A DNA stretch of 64,000 nucleotides from an uncultured Aquabacterium sp. (GTDB lineage Bacteria > Pseudomonadota > Gammaproteobacteria > Burkholderiales > Burkholderiaceae_C): NCBI RefSeq assembly GCF_913773725.1, contig NZ_CAJYGK010000156.1, forward strand, positions 124,001 through 188,000, read 5' to 3'. Each line of letters opens with the position of its first letter. Position 1 is the stretch's first letter. The notes under the pieces were generated by a model. It did not search any database and was not told where the DNA came from. It saw only the letters and a list, made by a program, of their open reading frames with translations. Positions 50,031 to 62,782 of the stretch are shown in pieces. A program made the translations under genes and the position numbers.

Positions 50031-50067
50031 CACAAACCCGACAAACCGCACAGTTCCCACGCCGCAG

Positions 50068-50108
50068 CGCCGATGCCCCTTGACCGGGGCATCGGCGTTT
50101 TTTCTTTT
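50068..50108 (+). terminator. Strong intrinsic terminator after the M20 gene
   Basis: CGCCGATGCCCC-N6-GGGGCATCGGCG is a perfect 12-pair hairpin followed by TTTTTTCTTTT. It insulates the isc/nif operon from upstream transcription and makes the sigma-54 promoter 33 bp further on its likely only promoter. Confidence 0.95.
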
Positions 50109-50140: not shown

Positions 50141-50156
50141 TGGCACCGGCCTTGCA
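50141..50156 (+). promoter_or_regulatory. Sigma-54 promoter of the iscS-iscU-hscA-fdx operon
   Basis: TGGCAC-CGGCC-TTGCA matches the RpoN -24/-12 consensus at every defined base; GG (50142-50143) and GC (50154-50155) are spaced by ten. Predicted +1 is near 50167, giving a 50-base leader to iscS. No perfect TGT-N10-ACA NifA site is seen upstream; TGA-N10-ACA at 50028-50043 is one base off. Confidence 0.9.
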
Positions 50157-50216
50157 ATGAGGCCGGCACAGGGTTGCAAGCCCCACTTGCCCCGACCGCC
50201 CCAAGGAGCGCCCCTC

Positions 50217-51437
50217 ATGACCATCCTGCCCAAGCGTCCGATCTACCTGGATTACGCGGCCACGACACCGGTCGACCCCCGCGTGGCATCCCGGATGATG
50301 AGTTACCTCAGCGAGCGCTTCGGCAACCCGGCGAGCCGGTCCCACGCCTATGGCTGGGCTGCCGAGGAGGCGGTCGAGATCGCACGGGAACAGGTGGCCC
50401 TGCTGATCGGCGCCGACCCGCGCGAGGTGGTGTGGACCTCCGGCGCCACCGAGAGCAACAACCTCGCCATCAAAGGGGCGGCGCAGTTCTATCAGGGCAA
50501 GGGTCGGCACATCGTCACGGTGGCCACAGAGCACAAGGCCGTGCTCGACACCGTGCGCGAGATGGAGCGCCAGGGATGGGAGGTGACGGTGTTGCCGGTG
50601 ATGCCCGACGGGCTCCTGGACCTGGACCAGTTCAAGGCGGCGCTGCGACCGGACACAGTGCTGGCCTCGGTCATGTTCGTCAACAACGAGACCGGCGTGA
50701 TCCAGGACGTGGCCGCCCTGGGCCACCTCTGCCGCAGCCGCGGGGTGATCTTCCACGTCGATGCGGCGCAGGCCACAGGCAAGGTCGACATCGACCTGAG
50801 CGAGTTGCCCATCGACCTGATGTCGATGTCGGCCCACAAGAGCTACGGCCCGAAAGGCATCGGCGCTCTGTATGTGCGCCGCAAGCCGCGCATCCGCATC
50901 GAGGCCCAGATGCACGGTGGCGGGCACGAGCGGGGCATGCGCTCGGGCACGTTGCCGACGCACCAGATCGTCGGCATGGGCGAGGCCTTCCACATCGCCG
51001 CGCGGGAGATGGGGGCCGAACGCGAACGCATCCGCGCCCTGCGTGATCGCCTGTGGCAAGGCTTGCAGGCGCTCGAGGAGGTCCACCTCAACGGCCATCT
51101 GACCCACCGCACGCCGCACCACCTCAATGTGAGCTTCAACTACGTCGAGGGCGAGTCGCTGCTGATGGGCATGAAGGATGTGGCCGTGTCCTCCGGCTCC
51201 GCCTGCACATCGGCCAGCCTCGAGCCCAGCTACGTGTTGCGCGCCATGGGCCGCAGCGACGAACTGGCCCACAGCTCGGTGCGCTTCTCGCTGGGCCGCT
51301 ACACCACGGTCGACGAAGTCGACTTCACGGTCGCCCGGGTCAGCGAGGTGGTCCGCAAGCTGCGCGACATGAGCCCGCTGTGGGACATGGTGCGCTCGGG
51401 CATCGACCTCGACAGCATCCAGTGGGCGGCGCACTGA
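50217..51437 (+). CDS. iscS: Cysteine desulfurase, IscS type, nif-operon copy
   Basis: A 406-residue PLP enzyme that takes sulfur from cysteine and hands it to IscU. The PLP lysine is in [12 protein letters not shown]; the active-site Cys is in [17 protein letters not shown], the long IscS loop rather than the NifS type. The C-terminal DSIQWAAH is like IscS. Start ATG 50217 is eight bases after AAGGAG. It is the first gene after a sigma-54 promoter, so it likely serves nitrogenase-related Fe-S synthesis; no iscR precedes it. A housekeeping copy would be expected elsewhere. Confidence 0.94.
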
Positions 51438-51479
51438 GCGCACCCTGTCTGCAGACAACCCCATCCAGGAGAGCACCCC

Positions 51480-51923
51480 ATGGCATACAGCGACAAGGTC
51501 ATCGACCACTACGAGAACCCGCGCAATGTCGGCAGTTTCGCGGCCGACGAGGAAGGCGTGGCCACGGGCATGGTCGGCGCGCCGGCCTGCGGCGACGTGA
51601 TGAAGCTGCAGATCAAGGTCAATCCCGCCACGGGCGTGATCGAGGATGCGCGCTTCAAGACCTATGGCTGCGGCTCGGCCATTGCTTCGAGCTCGCTTGT
51701 GACCGAGTGGGTGCGGGGCAAGACGCTGGACCAGGCGCTCGAGATCAAGAACACGCAGATCGCCGAGGAACTCGCCCTGCCGCCGGTCAAGATCCATTGC
51801 TCGATCCTGGCCGAAGACGCGATCAAGGCGGCCGTTGCCGACTACCAGGCTCGCACGGCCACGGCACGCGCGGCCGATGGCCCCGTCACGCTGGGAGACC
51901 AGCCCGTGTGCGCGCCGACCTGA
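51480..51923 (+). CDS. iscU: Fe-S cluster scaffold IscU
   Basis: A 147-residue scaffold for [2Fe-2S]/[4Fe-4S] assembly. The three ligand cysteines are at 37 (PACGD), 64 (YGCGSA) and 107 (KIHCS), with the HscA-recognition motif LPPVK at 100-104. E. coli IscU has about 128 residues: this one has a C-terminal tail of about 20 residues ending CAPT, with one extra cysteine. It lies 42 bp after iscS. It is not the large three-domain NifU. Confidence 0.95.
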   Translation: MAYSDKVIDHYENPRNVGSFAADEEGVATGMVGAPACGDVMKLQIKVNPATGVIEDARFKTYGCGSAIASSSLVTEWVRGKTLDQALEIKNTQIAEELALPPVKIHCSILAEDAIKAAVADYQARTATARAADGPVTLGDQPVCAPT

Positions 51924-51959
51924 TGGCGCCCTGCCCTGCCCTTTCTGCCGGAGACCCTC

Positions 51960-52343
51960 ATGGACACCACCCTTGACGCTGTCGCCCCTGCGACTTCCAC
52001 GGCCGATGTGCCGCCCCCGCCCCTTCACTTCAGCAGCGCCGCGGCCGCCAAGGTGGCCGAGCTGATTGCCGAAGAAAACAACCCGGCGTTGAAGCTGCGG
52101 CTGTATGTGACCGGCGGGGGCTGCTCCGGCTTCTCTTATGGCTTCGCGTTCGACGACAAGGTCGCCGACGACGACACCGCCATCGAGCGCGACGGGGTGA
52201 CCATGGTCGTGGACATGATGAGCCTGCAGTACCTGCTCGGGGCCGACATCGACTACGAGGACGGGCTGGAAGGCTCGCGCTTCGTGATCCACAACCCGAA
52301 CGCGCAGACCACCTGTGGCTGCGGCAGTTCGTTCTCGGTGTGA
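51960..52343 (+). CDS. A-type iron-sulfur carrier, ErpA-like
   Basis: A 127-residue HesB/IscA-fold protein. Conserved cysteines are in [12 protein letters not shown] and at the C terminus in [12 protein letters not shown] 25-residue Ala/Pro/Thr leader precedes the domain. The long hydrophilic segment [23 protein letters not shown] resembles ErpA. It carries clusters from IscU to target proteins. Next to a second A-type gene (iscA, 8 bp later), which is not usual in an isc operon. Confidence 0.92.
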
Positions 52344-52351
52344 GGTGCACC

Positions 52352-52675
52352 ATGCCCATCACCATGACCGACACGGCGGCCCGCCACGTGCAGAAGTCGC
52401 TGGCGAAACGGGGCAAGGGCATCGGCCTGCGCCTGGCAGTGAAGACCAGCGGGTGCTCGGGCCTGGCGTACGCGATGGAGTTCGTCGACGAGCCCCAGCC
52501 TGAGGACGTGGCCTTTCAGAGCCATGGTCTGACACTGCTGGTCGACCCCAAGAGCCTGCCCTTTCTGGACGGCACCGAGCTGGATTTCGTGCGCGAGGGC
52601 CTGAACGAAGGCTTCAAGTTCCACAACCCGAACGCCAAGGCGGCATGCGGGTGTGGCGAGAGCTTCGCCGTCTGA
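52352..52675 (+). CDS. iscA: A-type iron-sulfur carrier IscA
   Basis: A 107-residue protein, normal IscA length. It begins [21 protein letters not shown]; cysteines are in [11 protein letters not shown] and [10 protein letters not shown]. It binds iron or clusters and passes them on. Start ATG 52352 is eight bases after the previous stop; GTG 52340 overlaps that stop and is less likely. The next gene is hscA directly, ten bases on, with no hscB between. Confidence 0.95.
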
Positions 52676-52685
52676 GGGATCGAGC

Positions 52686-54569
52686 ATGGCACTGCTGCAG
52701 ATTGCCGAGCCGGGACAGAGCGCGGCCCCTCATCAGCACCGGCTGGCGGCGGGCATCGACCTGGGTACGACCAATTCGCTGGTGGCCAGCGTGATGAGTG
52801 CCGTGCCGCGGTCGATGGCCGACGCACACGGACGCCTGCTGCTGCCCTCGGTGGTGCGCTATGCCCTCAACGGCGTCGTGACGGTCGGCGCCGATGCGCT
52901 GGAAGCACAGGCCACCGACCCCTTGAACACGATCGCATCGGTCAAGCGCCTGATGGGCCGCAGCCTGGCCGACATCGAATCGTCCGGCGCGCCGGCCTAT
53001 CGCCTGGTCGAGCAGCCGGGCATGGTGATGGTGGAGACGGCGGCGGGGCTGAAGTCTCCCGTGGAGGTCTCGGCAGACATCCTGCGCACGTTGGGCGCGC
53101 GGGCCGAAGCCGCACTGGGCGGCCCCCTGACCGGCGTGGTGATCACGGTGCCCGCCTACTTCGATGATGCACAGCGCCAGGCCACCAAGGACGCCGCACG
53201 CCTGGCCGGCCTGCCGGTGCTCCGCCTGCTCAACGAGCCGACCGCCGCAGCCATCGCGTACGGACTGGACAAGGGATCTGAAGGCACGTATGTGGTCTAC
53301 GACCTCGGAGGGGGCACGTTCGATGTCTCGGTCCTGAGGCTGTCGCGCGGCGTGTTCGAGGTCCTGTCGACCGGCGGGGACTCGGCACTCGGCGGTGACG
53401 ACGTCGACCGGGTGCTGGCGATGTGGACGGCCACGCAGGCCGAACAGGACTGGACCGCGCTGGGCCCGCAGGATCGGCAGCACCTGCTGATCTGCGCTCG
53501 GGCCGCCAAGGAGGCGCTGTCGGGCTACGCGGCGGTCGATGTGCCGCTGGCCCTGCCCGGCAACCCGGCCGATACCCGCGCCGCCACGCTGACGCGCGAG
53601 GTCTTTGCCGACCTGACGCGGGGGTTGATCCAGAAGACGCTGTCGGCCACCCGACGTGCCCTGAAGGACGCCGCCGTCGAGATCGACGAGGTGGACGGGG
53701 TCGTGCTGGTGGGCGGCTCCACACGCATGCCCGTGGTCCGGGAGGCCGTGGCGCGGATGTTCGAGCAGGAACCGCTGACCGATCTCAATCCGGACGAGGT
53801 GGTCGCACTGGGTGCCGCCATCCAGGCCGACGCCCTGGTGGGCAACCGGCAGGGCGATGGGGGCTGGCTGCTGCTGGATGTGTGCCCGCTTTCGCTGGGG
53901 CTGGAGACCATGGGTGGCCTGGTCGAGAAGATCATTCCGCGCAACACCACCCTGCCGGCATCGCGGGCGCAGGACTTCACGACCTTCAAGGACGGGCAGA
54001 CCGCGATGAGCCTGCATGTCGTGCAAGGCGAGCGCGAAGGCGTCAAGGACTGCCGCTCGCTGGCCCGCTTCACTTTGCGCGGCATCCCGCCCATGGTGGC
54101 CGGTGCTGCGCGCATCCGGGTCACCTTTCAGATCGACGCCGATGGCCTGTTGAGCGTCAGCGCCCGAGAGCAGAGCACCGGGGTGGCCACCGAAGTTCAG
54201 GTCAAGCCGTCATACGGCCTGGACAACGACCAGATCGCCGCCATGCTGAAGGACAGTGTGGGCCACGCCGACGAGGACATGCGCCTGCGCATGCTGCGCG
54301 AGGCCCAGGTGGACGCACGGCGCCTGCTGGATGCCACCGAAGCGGCCCTGGCCGAGGACGGCGAAGCCCTGCTGTCGCCGCTGGAGCGGCAGCAGGTGCG
54401 CGATGCCATCAACCTGGTGGCGGATCGGCTGGAGACGCAAGCCGACACCGATGCGGTGAAGTCAGCGTGCCAGGCCCTCAATGCCGTCACGACCGCCTTT
54501 GCCGCACGCCGGATGGACGCCGGCATCCGAAAGGCCCTGTCAGGCCGCGTGCTGGCCACGCTCAGCTGA
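52686..54569 (+). CDS. hscA: Hsp70-type chaperone HscA
   Basis: A 627-residue specialised Hsp70 that drives cluster release from Isc[13 protein letters not shown] is the typical HscA start; the ATPase domain shows [28 protein letters not shown] and [12 protein letters not shown]; the peptide-binding domain starts near 395. About 10 residues longer than E. coli HscA. Its J-domain partner HscB is not encoded at this locus, so HscB must come from elsewhere or the system works without it. Confidence 0.95.
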
Positions 54570-54579
54570 GGACGCCACC

Positions 54580-54918
54580 ATGCCCATTGTCACGGTGCTG
54601 CCGCACAGCCAGTTGTGTCCCGAAGGGGTGCAGTTCGAAGTGGCCTCGGGAAGCTCATTGTGTGAGGCGCTGCTGGCCCACGGGGTGGCCATCGAGCACG
54701 CGTGCGACATGGTGGCGGCTTGTGCCACTTGCCATGTACTGGTGCGCCAGGGAGGCGACGCGCTGGCCGCGCCGGACGATGACGAGAACGATGAGCTGGA
54801 CAATGCCTGGGGCCTGGAGCCCTGCTCGCGCCTGGCCTGCTGCGTGAAGCTGCGCGGCGCAGACCTGACGATCGAGCTGCCACGCCACACGCGCAACCTG
54901 GCGCGGGAACGGCCTTGA
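54580..54918 (+). CDS. fdx: [2Fe-2S] ferredoxin Fdx (isc type)
   Basis: A 112-residue adrenodoxin-like ferredoxin. Cluster ligands are in ACDMVAACATCHV (Cys-x5-Cys-x2-Cys) and RLACC. It gives electrons for Fe-S assembly with IscS and IscU. It is the last gene of the first sigma-54 operon: an intrinsic terminator follows at 54985. No iscX follows. Confidence 0.95.
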   Translation: MPIVTVLPHSQLCPEGVQFEVASGSSLCEALLAHGVAIEHACDMVAACATCHVLVRQGGDALAAPDDDENDELDNAWGLEPCSRLACCVKLRGADLTIELPRHTRNLARERP

Positions 54919-54984
54919 ATGCCTGCCTTCTCGCACACTCAACTTCACCGGCTCATTGAGTGAGCCTATGCCCTTGCAGATTCG

Positions 54985-55014
54985 AAGCCGCCTCCTTGCA
55001 GGCGGCTTTGTTTT
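54985..55014 (+). terminator. Intrinsic terminator after fdx
   Basis: AAGCCGCCT-N6-AGGCGGCTT, nine pairs, followed by TGTTTT. It ends the isc-type operon before the nifV promoter, so the two sets are separate transcripts. Confidence 0.88.
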
Positions 55015-55188
55015 GGCCGCTGGCCTTCGTGACGGGGCGCTCTGCATGTGGCAAAGAAAACAAACCCGACAAGCCCCTCCGACAGCCTGGACCGGACCAG
55101 ACACCACCGCCCCATCACATGCGCATCGATCAGAAAAAACGCTTTTGTTTTCAATAGCTTGAAGCGATTCAGAAGACCTGATCGCACA
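55015..55188 (+). other. Upstream control region of nifV operon
   Basis: A gene-free stretch of 174 bases, within a 329-base gap between fdx and nifV. It is more AT-rich than its surroundings, notably around 55130-55160 (AAAAAACG and TTTTGTTTTCAATAG), a plausible IHF-bending region between the NifA site and the -24/-12 element. No other gene is seen. Confidence 0.6.
55047..55062 (+). promoter_or_regulatory. NifA upstream activator sequence TGT-N10-ACA
   Basis: A perfect TGT-N10-ACA, about 160 bp upstream of the predicted +1 (55215). NifA sites are usually 80-150 bp upstream, so it is slightly far but plausible with IHF bending. It directly supports NifA control of nifV. Confidence 0.75.
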
Positions 55189-55204
55189 TGGCACACCCCT
55201 TGCA
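55189..55204 (+). promoter_or_regulatory. Sigma-54 promoter of the nifV-fixABCX operon
   Basis: TGGCAC-ACCCC-TTGCA matches the RpoN consensus at every defined base (GG 55190-55191, GC 55202-55203, spaced by ten). Predicted +1 near 55215. It overlaps the first codons of the longest nifV frame (55188), which shows that the real nifV start is downstream. Confidence 0.92.
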
Positions 55205-55247: not shown

Positions 55248-56387
55248 ATGTCTGCCCCCATCATCAACGACACCACCCTGCGCGACGGCGAACAGACCGC
55301 CGGCGTGGCCTTCTCGGTCGAGGAGAAGTGCGCCATCGCCACGGCCTTGTCCGAGGCGGGGGTGCCCGAGATGGAAATCGGCATTCCGGCGATGGGCGAC
55401 GTGGAGGTGGCCACCATCAACGCCATTGCGGCACTCGGCCTGCGCAGCCGGCTGATGGTGTGGGGCCGGATGTGCGAAGCCGATGTCGCCGCGGCCAGCC
55501 TGTGCCAGGCCGACATCGTGCACCTGTCCATCCCGGTTTCGGACATCCACCTTCAGCACAAGCTGGCACAGGGCCGGATGTGGGTGCTCGAGCAGATCGA
55601 GCGCTTCGTGTGGCCGCTGGCACATGACGGGATCACCGTGTCTGTCGGGCTCGAGGACGCGTCTCGCGCCGACCCGCACTTCCTGGCCGCGGTGGCGCGC
55701 ATGGCGCAGGACTGCGGCGCCAGGCGCCTGCGGTTCGCCGACACGCTGGGCGTGCTGGACCCATTCAGCACGGTGGACGCGATTGCCGGCCTGCGCCGGG
55801 CCGTGGACATCGACATCGAGATGCACGCACACGACGATCTGGGGCTGGCCACCGCCAACACGCTGGCCGCGCTGCGTGCCGGCGCGACGCACGTGAACAC
55901 CACCGTCAACGGCCTGGGCGAGCGCGCGGGCAATGCCCCGCTGGAAGAGATCGTGATGGGCCTGCGTCACCTGCACAGCGCCGACAGCGGGGTCGACACC
56001 CGCTCGCTGTGCGCCATCTCCAAGCTGGTGGCGACGGCGTCCGGCCGGCAGGTGGCGCCCAACAAGAGCATCGTCGGCGAAGCGGTGTTCCGGCATGAAT
56101 CGGGCATCCACGTCGACGGGCTGCTGAAGAACCCGCACACCTACGAAGGCTTCGATCCGGCCGAGCTCGGGCGCCAGCGCGAAACGGTGCTGGGCAAGCA
56201 CTCGGGGTCGCGGGCCGTCCGTTCGGCCTACCAGGCGATGGGGTTGCCGGTGGTGGAACCCCAGGTGCAAGCGCTGCTGGCCCGCATCCGCGCCCATGCG
56301 GTGCATGCCAAGCGCCCGCCCACCGCGGACGAGCTGCAGCGTTTCTTCCTGGAAGCCAGCCACCCGACCGAAGGGGCCACGCAATGA
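55248..56387 (+). CDS. nifV: Homocitrate synthase NifV
   Basis: A 379-residue enzyme of the DRE-TIM family that condenses acetyl-CoA and 2-oxoglutarate to homocitrate, the organic part of FeMo-cofactor. [13 protein letters not shown] is the signature with metal and catalytic residues; [13 protein letters not shown] gives the metal-binding histidines, and [13 protein letters not shown] follows. Start ATG 55248 ([11 protein letters not shown]) was chosen because the sigma-54 promoter lies over the earlier start; a GTG at 55218 is an alternative. The stop overlaps cysE by four bases. Confidence 0.95.
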
Positions 56388-57232
56388 AGCGCGATGACCC
56401 CGGGCTGCACGCCATCCCGCTGCTCGACACCGAGGACGGCCCCGTTGCGGACGTGGCGGCCAGCCCGTCAACCGCACCGGGATGGTGGCGCCTGCTCAAG
56501 GAGGATGTCGCGTGTGTGCTGACACGCGACCCGGCTGCCCGCAACCTGTTCGAGGTGTGGACCATCTACCCGGGTGTGCAGGCCGTGGCCCTGTACAGGC
56601 TGGCCCATGCGCTCTGGCGCCACGGCGCGCGCTATGGCGCCCGGCTGCTGTCCTTCATTGCACGCTGGCTCACCAATGTGGACATCCATCCCGGGGCGCG
56701 CATCGGACGCCGCTTTTTCATCGACCACGGGGCCTGCGTGGTGATCGGCGAGACGGCCGAGATCGGTGACGACGTCACGCTCTACCACGGTGTGACACTG
56801 GGCGGCACCACCTGGCAACCGGGCAAGCGCCACCCCACGCTGGGCCACGGTGTGGTCGTGGGCGCAGGGGCCAAGATCCTGGGCCCGATCACGGTGGGCC
56901 ACGGCGCACGGGTGGCCGCCAACTCGGTGGTGATCGACAACGTACCCGATGCCGCCACGGTGGTGGGCATCCCGGGGCGCATCGTCATCCGGCGCGAGCC
57001 CCGCCAGGCCAGTGACCGCATCGACCTGCAGCATCACCTCATCCCCGACCCGGTCGGCAAGGCCATCGGCTGCCTGCTGGACCGCATCGCCGAACTGGAA
57101 TCCGAGGTGAAGTTGCTCAAGGGGCAGGCCGCCCCGCCCCACACCGGCGACGACGCCTGCCACAGCTGCGAGGTCGACGGCCACCCCTGTGCCCAACCCA
57201 CCTTCGCCTCACGATCGGGAGTGTCCTCATGA
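56384..57232 (+). CDS. cysE: Serine O-acetyltransferase (CysE/NifP type)
   Basis: A 282-residue acetyltransferase making O-acetylserine for cysteine. The left-handed beta-helix is visible from [30 protein letters not shown] to [14 protein letters not shown], with [17 protein letters not shown] as the active-site loop. Length and N terminus ([19 protein letters not shown]) match the EpsC/NifP group. In nif clusters such copies (nifP in Azotobacter) raise cysteine supply for Fe-S clusters. It has a cysteine-rich C-terminal tail. Overlaps nifV and nifW by four bases each. Confidence 0.94.
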
Positions 57233-62230: not shown

Positions 62231-62782
62231 ATGACATTGATCAAGAAGCTGACCCAAACGGGTCTAGCGACGCTCGGCCTGGTCGCAGCAGTGAGTGCCC
62301 ATGCCGACCTGGCTGCCGACCTCAAAGGCACCTGGACCGGAACCTGGGACATCACCCAGTGGTACAACGGCAGCACGCCGATCGAAGGCGAGCCGTTCTC
62401 CGCGGCCGTCACGCTGGTGATCGGCACCGGTCCGGGAAGCGGCACGCTGCACGTCGACCTGCCTGCCGAGTTTGGCCCCGACGATGCCGTGGACTACACC
62501 GGCGTGGTTACGGGCATCGGCACCGGTCCGGATGGAACCGGCATCCGCCTGGAGGTGAGCTATCCCGAGTTGTTCGCGGACGGCGTCGGCGCGCTCCTGC
62601 TGGGGTCCCGCCTGGGCAACGTGCTGTCCGGCACCTACACCGAACTGAACATCCCCATCGAGAACTACCTGCACTGGAGCGGGCCGATCACGCTGACCAC
62701 GCCGGTGCCCGAGCCGGCCGGGCTTGTGCTGGCGGCTGCCGGCCTGGGAGGCCTGTGCTGGCGTCAACGGCGCAGCGGCTGA
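62231..62782 (+). CDS. PEP-CTERM sorting domain protein
   Basis: A 183-residue secreted protein. A signal peptide (MTLIKKLTQTGLATLGLVAA, cleavage after AHA) and the C-terminal VPEPAGLVLAAAGLGGLCW followed by basic RQRRSG show exosortase-type sorting. The body is Gly/Thr-rich, with a WTGTWDITQWYNG segment. No relation to nitrogen fixation is apparent. A terminator follows at 62871. Confidence 0.88.
   Translation: MTLIKKLTQTGLATLGLVAAVSAHADLAADLKGTWTGTWDITQWYNGSTPIEGEPFSAAVTLVIGTGPGSGTLHVDLPAEFGPDDAVDYTGVVTGIGTGPDGTGIRLEVSYPELFADGVGALLLGSRLGNVLSGTYTELNIPIENYLHWSGPITLTTPVPEPAGLVLAAAGLGGLCWRQRRSG

Follow-up and report, generated by a model that had tools for sequence, protein, structure and literature searches.

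We analysed a stretch of 64,000 nucleotides from an uncultured Aquabacterium sp. (hereafter the window; positions 124001-188000 of contig C156 in our genome G000, an assembly of 4.5 Mb in 163 contigs that is 99.3% complete), in which nucleotides 50217-54918 encode the iron-sulfur cluster assembly (Isc) genes iscS-iscU-erpA-iscA-hscA-fdx, all on the + strand. The identities that an earlier note on this DNA had given the six genes were upheld by profile searches. The operon and its putative control elements are as follows, in window positions.

50032-50052, + strand: putative enhancer, two overlapping copies of ACAAA-N4-ACA (50032-50043 and 50041-50052); gapped-word search and conservation.
50141-50156, + strand: -24/-12 promoter element of isc, TGGCACCGGCCTTGCA; exact match and conservation.
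50217-51437, + strand: iscS, cysteine desulfurase; profile match, active cysteine and lysine retained.
51480-51923, + strand: iscU, scaffold with a C-terminal cysteine tail (...LGDQPVCAPT); profile match and alignment.
51960-52343, + strand: erpA-like gene for an A-type carrier of the ErpA type; 185.9 bits against a cut-off of 117.
52352-52675, + strand: iscA; profile match (TIGR02011).
52686-54569, + strand: hscA, chaperone, without an adjacent hscB; profile match.
54580-54918, + strand: fdx, Isc-type [2Fe-2S] ferredoxin; profile match and residues.

IscS, IscU, ErpA, IscA (with TIGR02011) and HscA passed their NCBIfam cut-offs; Fdx fell narrowly under its own (130.5 versus 132.1 bits), and IscA was under the cut-off of a second IscA model (162.1 versus 181). 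The lysine and cysteine of IscS, the ligands and LPPVK motif of IscU, and the cysteines of Fdx and IscA were all retained, by E. coli residue numbering. Neither hscB nor iscR is among the window genes of this operon. It is not the housekeeping copy, because a separate operon, iscR-iscS-iscU-iscA-hscB-hscA-fdx, is present on contig C32; the second, iscR-linked operon for which the earlier note had suggested a search thus exists, and we rejected the view of the window operon as the sole housekeeping isc. The only HSCB_C match in the genome belongs to the operon on C32.

The iron-sulfur supply of nitrogenase is usually credited to two dedicated proteins, NifU and NifS. By a NifU_N search this assembly lacks NifU, because the only matches are two domains that both belong to IscU, and the window IscU, at 143.9 against the cut-off of 273.3 of the NifU_proper model, is not a NifU of three domains (IscU-like, ferredoxin-like and Nfu). 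Three NifS-like proteins are encoded in the genome, and the best of them scored 478.5 bits, under the curated NifS cut-off of 530.75. Contig C29 holds the following gene.

L018:2876-4060, - strand: NifS-like desulfurase; 370 bits, cut-off 530.75.

It adjoins nifB and a NifZ-domain gene (L018 4486-4827). On the same contig lie nifA, nifH and nifE, along with two more genes for nitrogenase component 1, which by their position are nifD and nifK. An acid-mine fosmid is likewise described as having a class V aminotransferase beside nifZ (PMC3912193). Given the desulfurase on C29, sulfur may reach nitrogenase by two routes. The suggestion in the earlier note that Isc works in place of, or alongside, NifU and NifS therefore stands firmly, as to replacement, for NifU alone, of which none was found, and less so for NifS.

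The arrangement is shared by many relatives. NifV exceeded the curated cut-off in 32 of 399 sampled family genomes, the present one among them. All 32 had at least two NifU_N matches and thus a second IscU (G314 has a weak third match, and in G008 and G023 the second match is incomplete), and 31 had two HscA above the cut-off, G008 having one and fragments at contig ends. The nif-type HscA shared a contig with nifV in 28 of the 32, at less than 5 kb in 25 and at 11-17 kb in 3, and lay on another contig in 4. The six genes were complete at 28 of 31 further nif loci of the family and cut by contig ends at the remaining 3 (L058, L060, L065); hscB and iscR were detected at none of the 31. The housekeeping operons of 20 of these 31 genomes had iscR and hscB in every case and erpA in none. 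Named genomes were also scanned for NifV, which gave at least 571 loci; we kept the best 80, and iscS was found in the flank of 32 of these 80. Of the NifV proteins in the named loci retained, the nearest (81% identity) was that of L111, an Aquabacterium metagenome-assembled genome whose gene order is identical to that of the window from the M20 peptidase through fixX. A Herbaspirillum sp. AP02 locus also has the six genes. An hscB was found inside the nif-linked operon in 5 of the best 80 named loci, namely L151, L166 (Methylotenera), L176, and L157 and L172 of Methylococcaceae; the Methylophilus copy L220 lacks it. The nif-linked operons of L157 and L172, which have a canonical NifA site, encode the only HscA of their genomes to pass the cut-off, so with their hscB they may double as the general Isc.

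We asked of the trees how the two copies are related. An HscA tree of 75 sequences contained a clade (support 96/95) that held 38 of the 39 sequences from erpA-bearing nif-type operons, apart from the housekeeping copies, which were drawn from this family and from others. Labels were reset after the first HscA tree and before the clade test: L213 became nif (its operon is iscU-erpA-iscA-hscA-fdx without hscB), L217 was relabelled as housekeeping for its branching despite its nif-type order, so that by order the count is 38 of 39 and not all, and two Methylococcaceae sequences were treated as a third group. When two Azospirillum NifS sequences were included in an IscS tree, they fell inside the nif sequences, which is probably long-branch attraction, and one nif clade was not rejected (approximately unbiased test, p-AU 0.17). 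Without NifS and the long sequence L113, 38 of 44 nif sequences formed a clade (97/95) comprising the family, Zoogloea and Thiomonas, and 21 housekeeping sequences formed another (100/99); 6 deeper nif sequences, including that of Herbaspirillum, took no firm position, and a single nif clade was again not rejected (p-AU 0.075). The trees place the split between nif and housekeeping copies before the family diverged. By these comparisons nif-linked isc is an old, widespread Isc paralogue and not a one-off rewiring, and the complete rewiring that the earlier note took for the novelty of this organism is not particular to it.

One could envisage instead that the window operon arose by a recent duplication of the housekeeping operon and is redundant, without a function of its own, as its core proteins are all ordinary Isc homologues. 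We consider this extremely improbable, and the within-genome identities together with the trees led us to reject it: the window and housekeeping proteins are 62.0% identical for HscA and 55.4% for Fdx, and in only one case (L217) did the HscA tree nest a nif copy by its own housekeeping copy. The two operons also have different gene orders at the loci read, and the window genes keep open frames and their catalytic residues. In the Azospirillum loci L165 and L169, iscA-nifU-nifS occupies the same place before nifV. This order, the hscB-bearing nif-isc loci and L220 fit a history in which a full isc operon would have displaced NifU and hscB was lost afterwards.

The promoter of the operon and its counterpart at nifV can be compared directly, the latter being part of the following features.

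55047-55071, + strand: NifA-type site of nifV with a third half-site, TGT-N10-ACA-N6-ACA; motif search.
55189-55204, + strand: sigma-54 promoter element of nifV; the other exact match in the window.
55248-56387, + strand: nifV, homocitrate synthase; profile match, followed by cysE, nifW and fixABCX up to 61292.

TGGCACCGGCCTTGCA agrees exactly with the -24/-12 consensus, of which the 64-kb window has 2 exact matches, and from its position isc transcription would start near 50167. Since a pattern allowing two mismatches occurred in the window no more often than chance would give (31 matches, 25 expected), the case for the promoter rests on exactness and conservation. Throughout the genome TGGCAY-N5-TTGCW had 14 matches, 8 of them exact TGGCAC-N5-TTGCA, versus 4 in a reversed control. 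In all 30 usable family loci a -24/-12-like site lay 42-88 bases before iscS; L043, with 18 bases of upstream sequence, and L060, without iscS, were unusable for this count. A larger set comprised 62 loci with 330 bases before iscS, 58 of them distinct, which represent fewer than 58 independent events because related species are included. A site scoring at least 12 of 15 was present in all 58 distinct regions, 42-97 bases before iscS; 54 scored at least 13, and GG and GC were both retained at 56. Among 20 housekeeping iscS upstream regions used as a control, one scored 12 and none scored 13. Base shuffles of 450-base regions reached 12 in about one-fifth of the draws and 13 in 0-6 of 100, so a score of 12 alone is weak. 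The flawless TGGCAC-N5-TTGCA reported in the earlier note was thus confirmed, and its homologues are found throughout the 58 regions.

Within 300 bases upstream of the window isc promoter no canonical NifA site, TGT-N10-ACA, was found. This genome, which encodes NifA on C29, has the canonical site at nifV and nifH, and of 27 nifV loci from the same family genomes 24 carry it. NifA sites with spacings of N9-N12 upstream of isc were tried and rejected as inconsistent (N9 in 4 of 30 loci, N10-N12 in none). A search for enriched gapped words found ACAAA-N4-ACA in 30 of 30 family loci, where CGT replaces the expected TGT half-site in 14. The window enhancer reads ACA-N6-ACA-N6-ACA, and its two copies precede the -24 element by 109 and 100 bases. 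ACAAA-N4-ACA lay no more than 150 bases from the -24 element in 52 of the 58 distinct regions, compared with an expectation of about 0.4 of 58 from a background that includes these sites and with 0-5 for re-spaced or permuted versions. Two or more copies occurred in 26 of the 58; the copies tend to be 41-44 bases apart (19 pairs, with 43 in 13) or 9 bases apart (7 pairs, including that of the window). The canonical site is kept in 9 of the 58 isc upstream regions: all 6 loci without ACAAA-N4-ACA carry it, and at the isc of 3 others (L124, L179, L184) both elements are fused as TGT-N10-ACA-AA-N4-ACA.

The same half-site recurs at other nif promoters. In 162 distinct pairs of a sigma-54-like promoter and a canonical NifA site, taken from the 80 named NifV loci (L111-L190), L095-L110, the window, L007, L017 and L018, ACA followed the canonical site by 6 bases in 60, while each other offset from 0 to 39 gave 0-9. 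The mirror form, TGT 6 bases before the site, was found in 18 pairs (0-7 elsewhere), and lesser side peaks were TGT 11 bases after (12 pairs) and ACA 13 bases before (11 pairs). Our reading is that nif promoters contain a third NifA half-site and that the isc enhancer is the extended element of three half-sites minus its palindromic partner. A published account mentions that Klebsiella NifA binds to a half-site (PMC10590331). No description of a third NifA half-site was found in the open-access literature searched. An alternative is that ACAAA-N4-ACA serves another regulator and that NifA either needs no upstream site at isc or plays no part there. In keeping with this, the element is a direct repeat of fixed orientation (52 forward and 0 reverse of 58), unlike the palindromic NifA site. 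However, its ACA is a NifA half-site, it is fused to the canonical site in three loci and replaced by it in the six that lack it, and it recurs as the third half-site in the nif pairs above. We therefore regard the alternative as the less probable account, at perhaps one chance in a few, and favour a putative binding of NifA to ACAAA-N4-ACA.

The IscU scaffold itself differs between the two operons. A cysteine-bearing C-terminal tail, often EQPxCAP, was present in 63 of 66 nif-linked IscU sequences, among which some species were fetched twice (61 picked out by script, and L151 and L176 recognised by eye); L042, L113 and L186 lack it. None of 21 housekeeping IscU sequences has the tail, nor does IscU of E. 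coli. Azospirillum NifU has cysteines about as far beyond its IscU-like part, the first ones of its next domain (ICKCF or VCKCF), and a functional parallel between the tail cysteine and these cysteines is possible. A search of the open-access literature found no description of the tail.

Taken together, we think it likely that the operon is an Isc system dedicated to nitrogenase, switched by NifA and sigma-54 and doing the job of NifU. During nitrogen fixation NifA would bind the ACA half-site repeats near 50032-50052 and activate sigma-54 RNA polymerase at 50141, turning on a second iron-sulfur assembly line. IscS would give sulfur and Fdx electrons for a cluster built on IscU, HscA would aid its release, and IscA and ErpA would carry it towards NifH, NifB and the MoFe protein. 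HscA may use HscB of the housekeeping operon, or act without HscB. The operon would thereby perform the task that NifU has in Azotobacter or Azospirillum, while a NifS-like desulfurase persists near nifB. The recruitment of an Isc machine to nitrogenase proposed in the earlier note is thus supported by comparison (promoter, gene order and NifU absence), from which we infer its expression and its service to nitrogenase.

Several observations weigh against this reading. None of the 30 usable family loci has the canonical NifA site in the 300 bases before the isc promoter, so the argument for NifA control has to rely on the derived element. The second copy of Sulfuricella sp. T08 (L217, G413) has the nif order iscU-erpA-iscA-hscA-fdx, yet its HscA groups with its own housekeeping copy, which might reflect either gene conversion or a second recruitment. 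When 25 genomes of our own choosing from the 80 named loci were searched for HscA and NifU, 13 had two HscA above the cut-off, 1 (Thiomonas) had one and a fragment, 9 had one and 2 had none. Uliginosibacterium aquaticum (G407; L142, L219) combines nif-type Isc with a NifU-type frame of 309 amino acids. In Trinickia and two Paraburkholderia genomes a single HscA is accompanied by a second NifU_N protein of weak score. Nif-type Isc is therefore common, not universal, among NifV-bearing betaproteobacteria, and G407 would be a natural strain in which to study the division of labour between NifU and nif-type Isc.

The missing canonical site would also suit a second general Isc set, coinduced with nif under nitrogen limitation or low oxygen to cover the total iron-sulfur demand, serving all clients and possibly activated by NtrC or a different enhancer-binding protein; that the proteins are ordinary Isc homologues and that IscU is 89.8% identical to its housekeeping copy over 128 positions agrees with such a role. 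We consider it improbable, given the linkage to nifV and the absence of NifU in the same genomes, the canonical site kept in 9 of 58 upstream regions, and the outcome of the word enrichment, which by eye gave words like NifA half-sites and nothing like NtrC. Beyond the dedicated operon, we give about even weight to a wider proposal of a betaproteobacterial 'Nif-type Isc', an old paralogue with a cysteine-tailed IscU and an HscA mostly without its own HscB, which would have displaced NifU before nifV and be driven by a new class of head-to-tail ACA enhancers for NifA, derived from the three-half-site element by loss of the palindromic partner. If true, extended and head-to-tail NifA sites would alter how nif promoters are recognised in genomes. 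A broad bacterial group would apparently have in its dedicated Isc a natural alternative nearer to the mitochondrial assembly machinery, allowing a clean test of what a scaffold requires to serve nitrogenase.

The operon is bounded by two predicted terminators.

50066-50099, + strand: intrinsic terminator closing the preceding M20 peptidase gene, a 14-pair stem followed by T's; terminator scan and folding.
54983-55010, + strand: probable terminator of the isc operon, an 11-pair stem with a short T-rich tail; folding, z score -3.03.

The first (-29.6 kcal/mol, z score -5.15 by folding) is the strong terminator that the earlier note had placed at 50068-50108; the second is visible by folding and is not listed by the terminator scan. 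The adjacency to nifV-nifW-fixABCX was likewise found as claimed, with cysE (serine acetyltransferase, 56384-57232) overlapping the end of nifV by 4 bases. Only part of the relatives have cysE, which would supply a cysteine precursor from within the nif operon. Elsewhere, two small proteins (window 62231-62782 and L007:1121-1813) end in VPEP, a hydrophobic stretch and arginines, endings that presumably resemble PEP-CTERM sorting signals.

Nif-linked isc genes in betaproteobacteria were already known, as the earlier note remarked; in the open-access literature searched, no description of the conserved six-gene operon was found. In Rhodoferax antarcticus, nifU is reported missing and iscU and iscA lie in the nif cluster, their significance being left open; the available portion of that account gives no promoter, enhancer, IscU tail or conservation (PMC5374385). 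Hes, fdx and hsc genes of Herbaspirillum seropedicae are described within 7 NifA- and sigma-54-dependent operons, and genes there are named nifU and nifS (PMC3093359). On the acid-mine fosmid erpA-hscA is flanked by nifA and nifB, a sigma-N site is given for erpA, and nifU was not found; in the part of the report available, two of the six genes are described and nifS is present (PMC3912193). A 2026 survey, in its accessible part, lumps iscU with nifU and iscS with nifS (PMC12903952). In Paenibacillus polymyxa, SufCDB and a NifS-like desulfurase are described as replacing NifU, so that a general iron-sulfur system likewise stands in for it, although it is Suf and not Isc (PMC8038749). The nif-linked operon resembles the housekeeping ISC system (E. 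coli iscRSUA-hscBA-fdx-iscX) in IscS, IscU with LPPVK, IscA, HscA and Fdx and their catalytic residues, and differs from it in the lack of iscR and hscB, in ErpA between iscU and iscA, in its sigma-54 promoter, in the IscU cysteine tail and in its position beside nifV. With the NIF system (iscA-nifU-nifS of Azospirillum) it shares the place directly before nifV and the presumed task, whereas its IscU lacks the two further domains of NifU, its IscS is of the Isc type, and HscA and Fdx are added.

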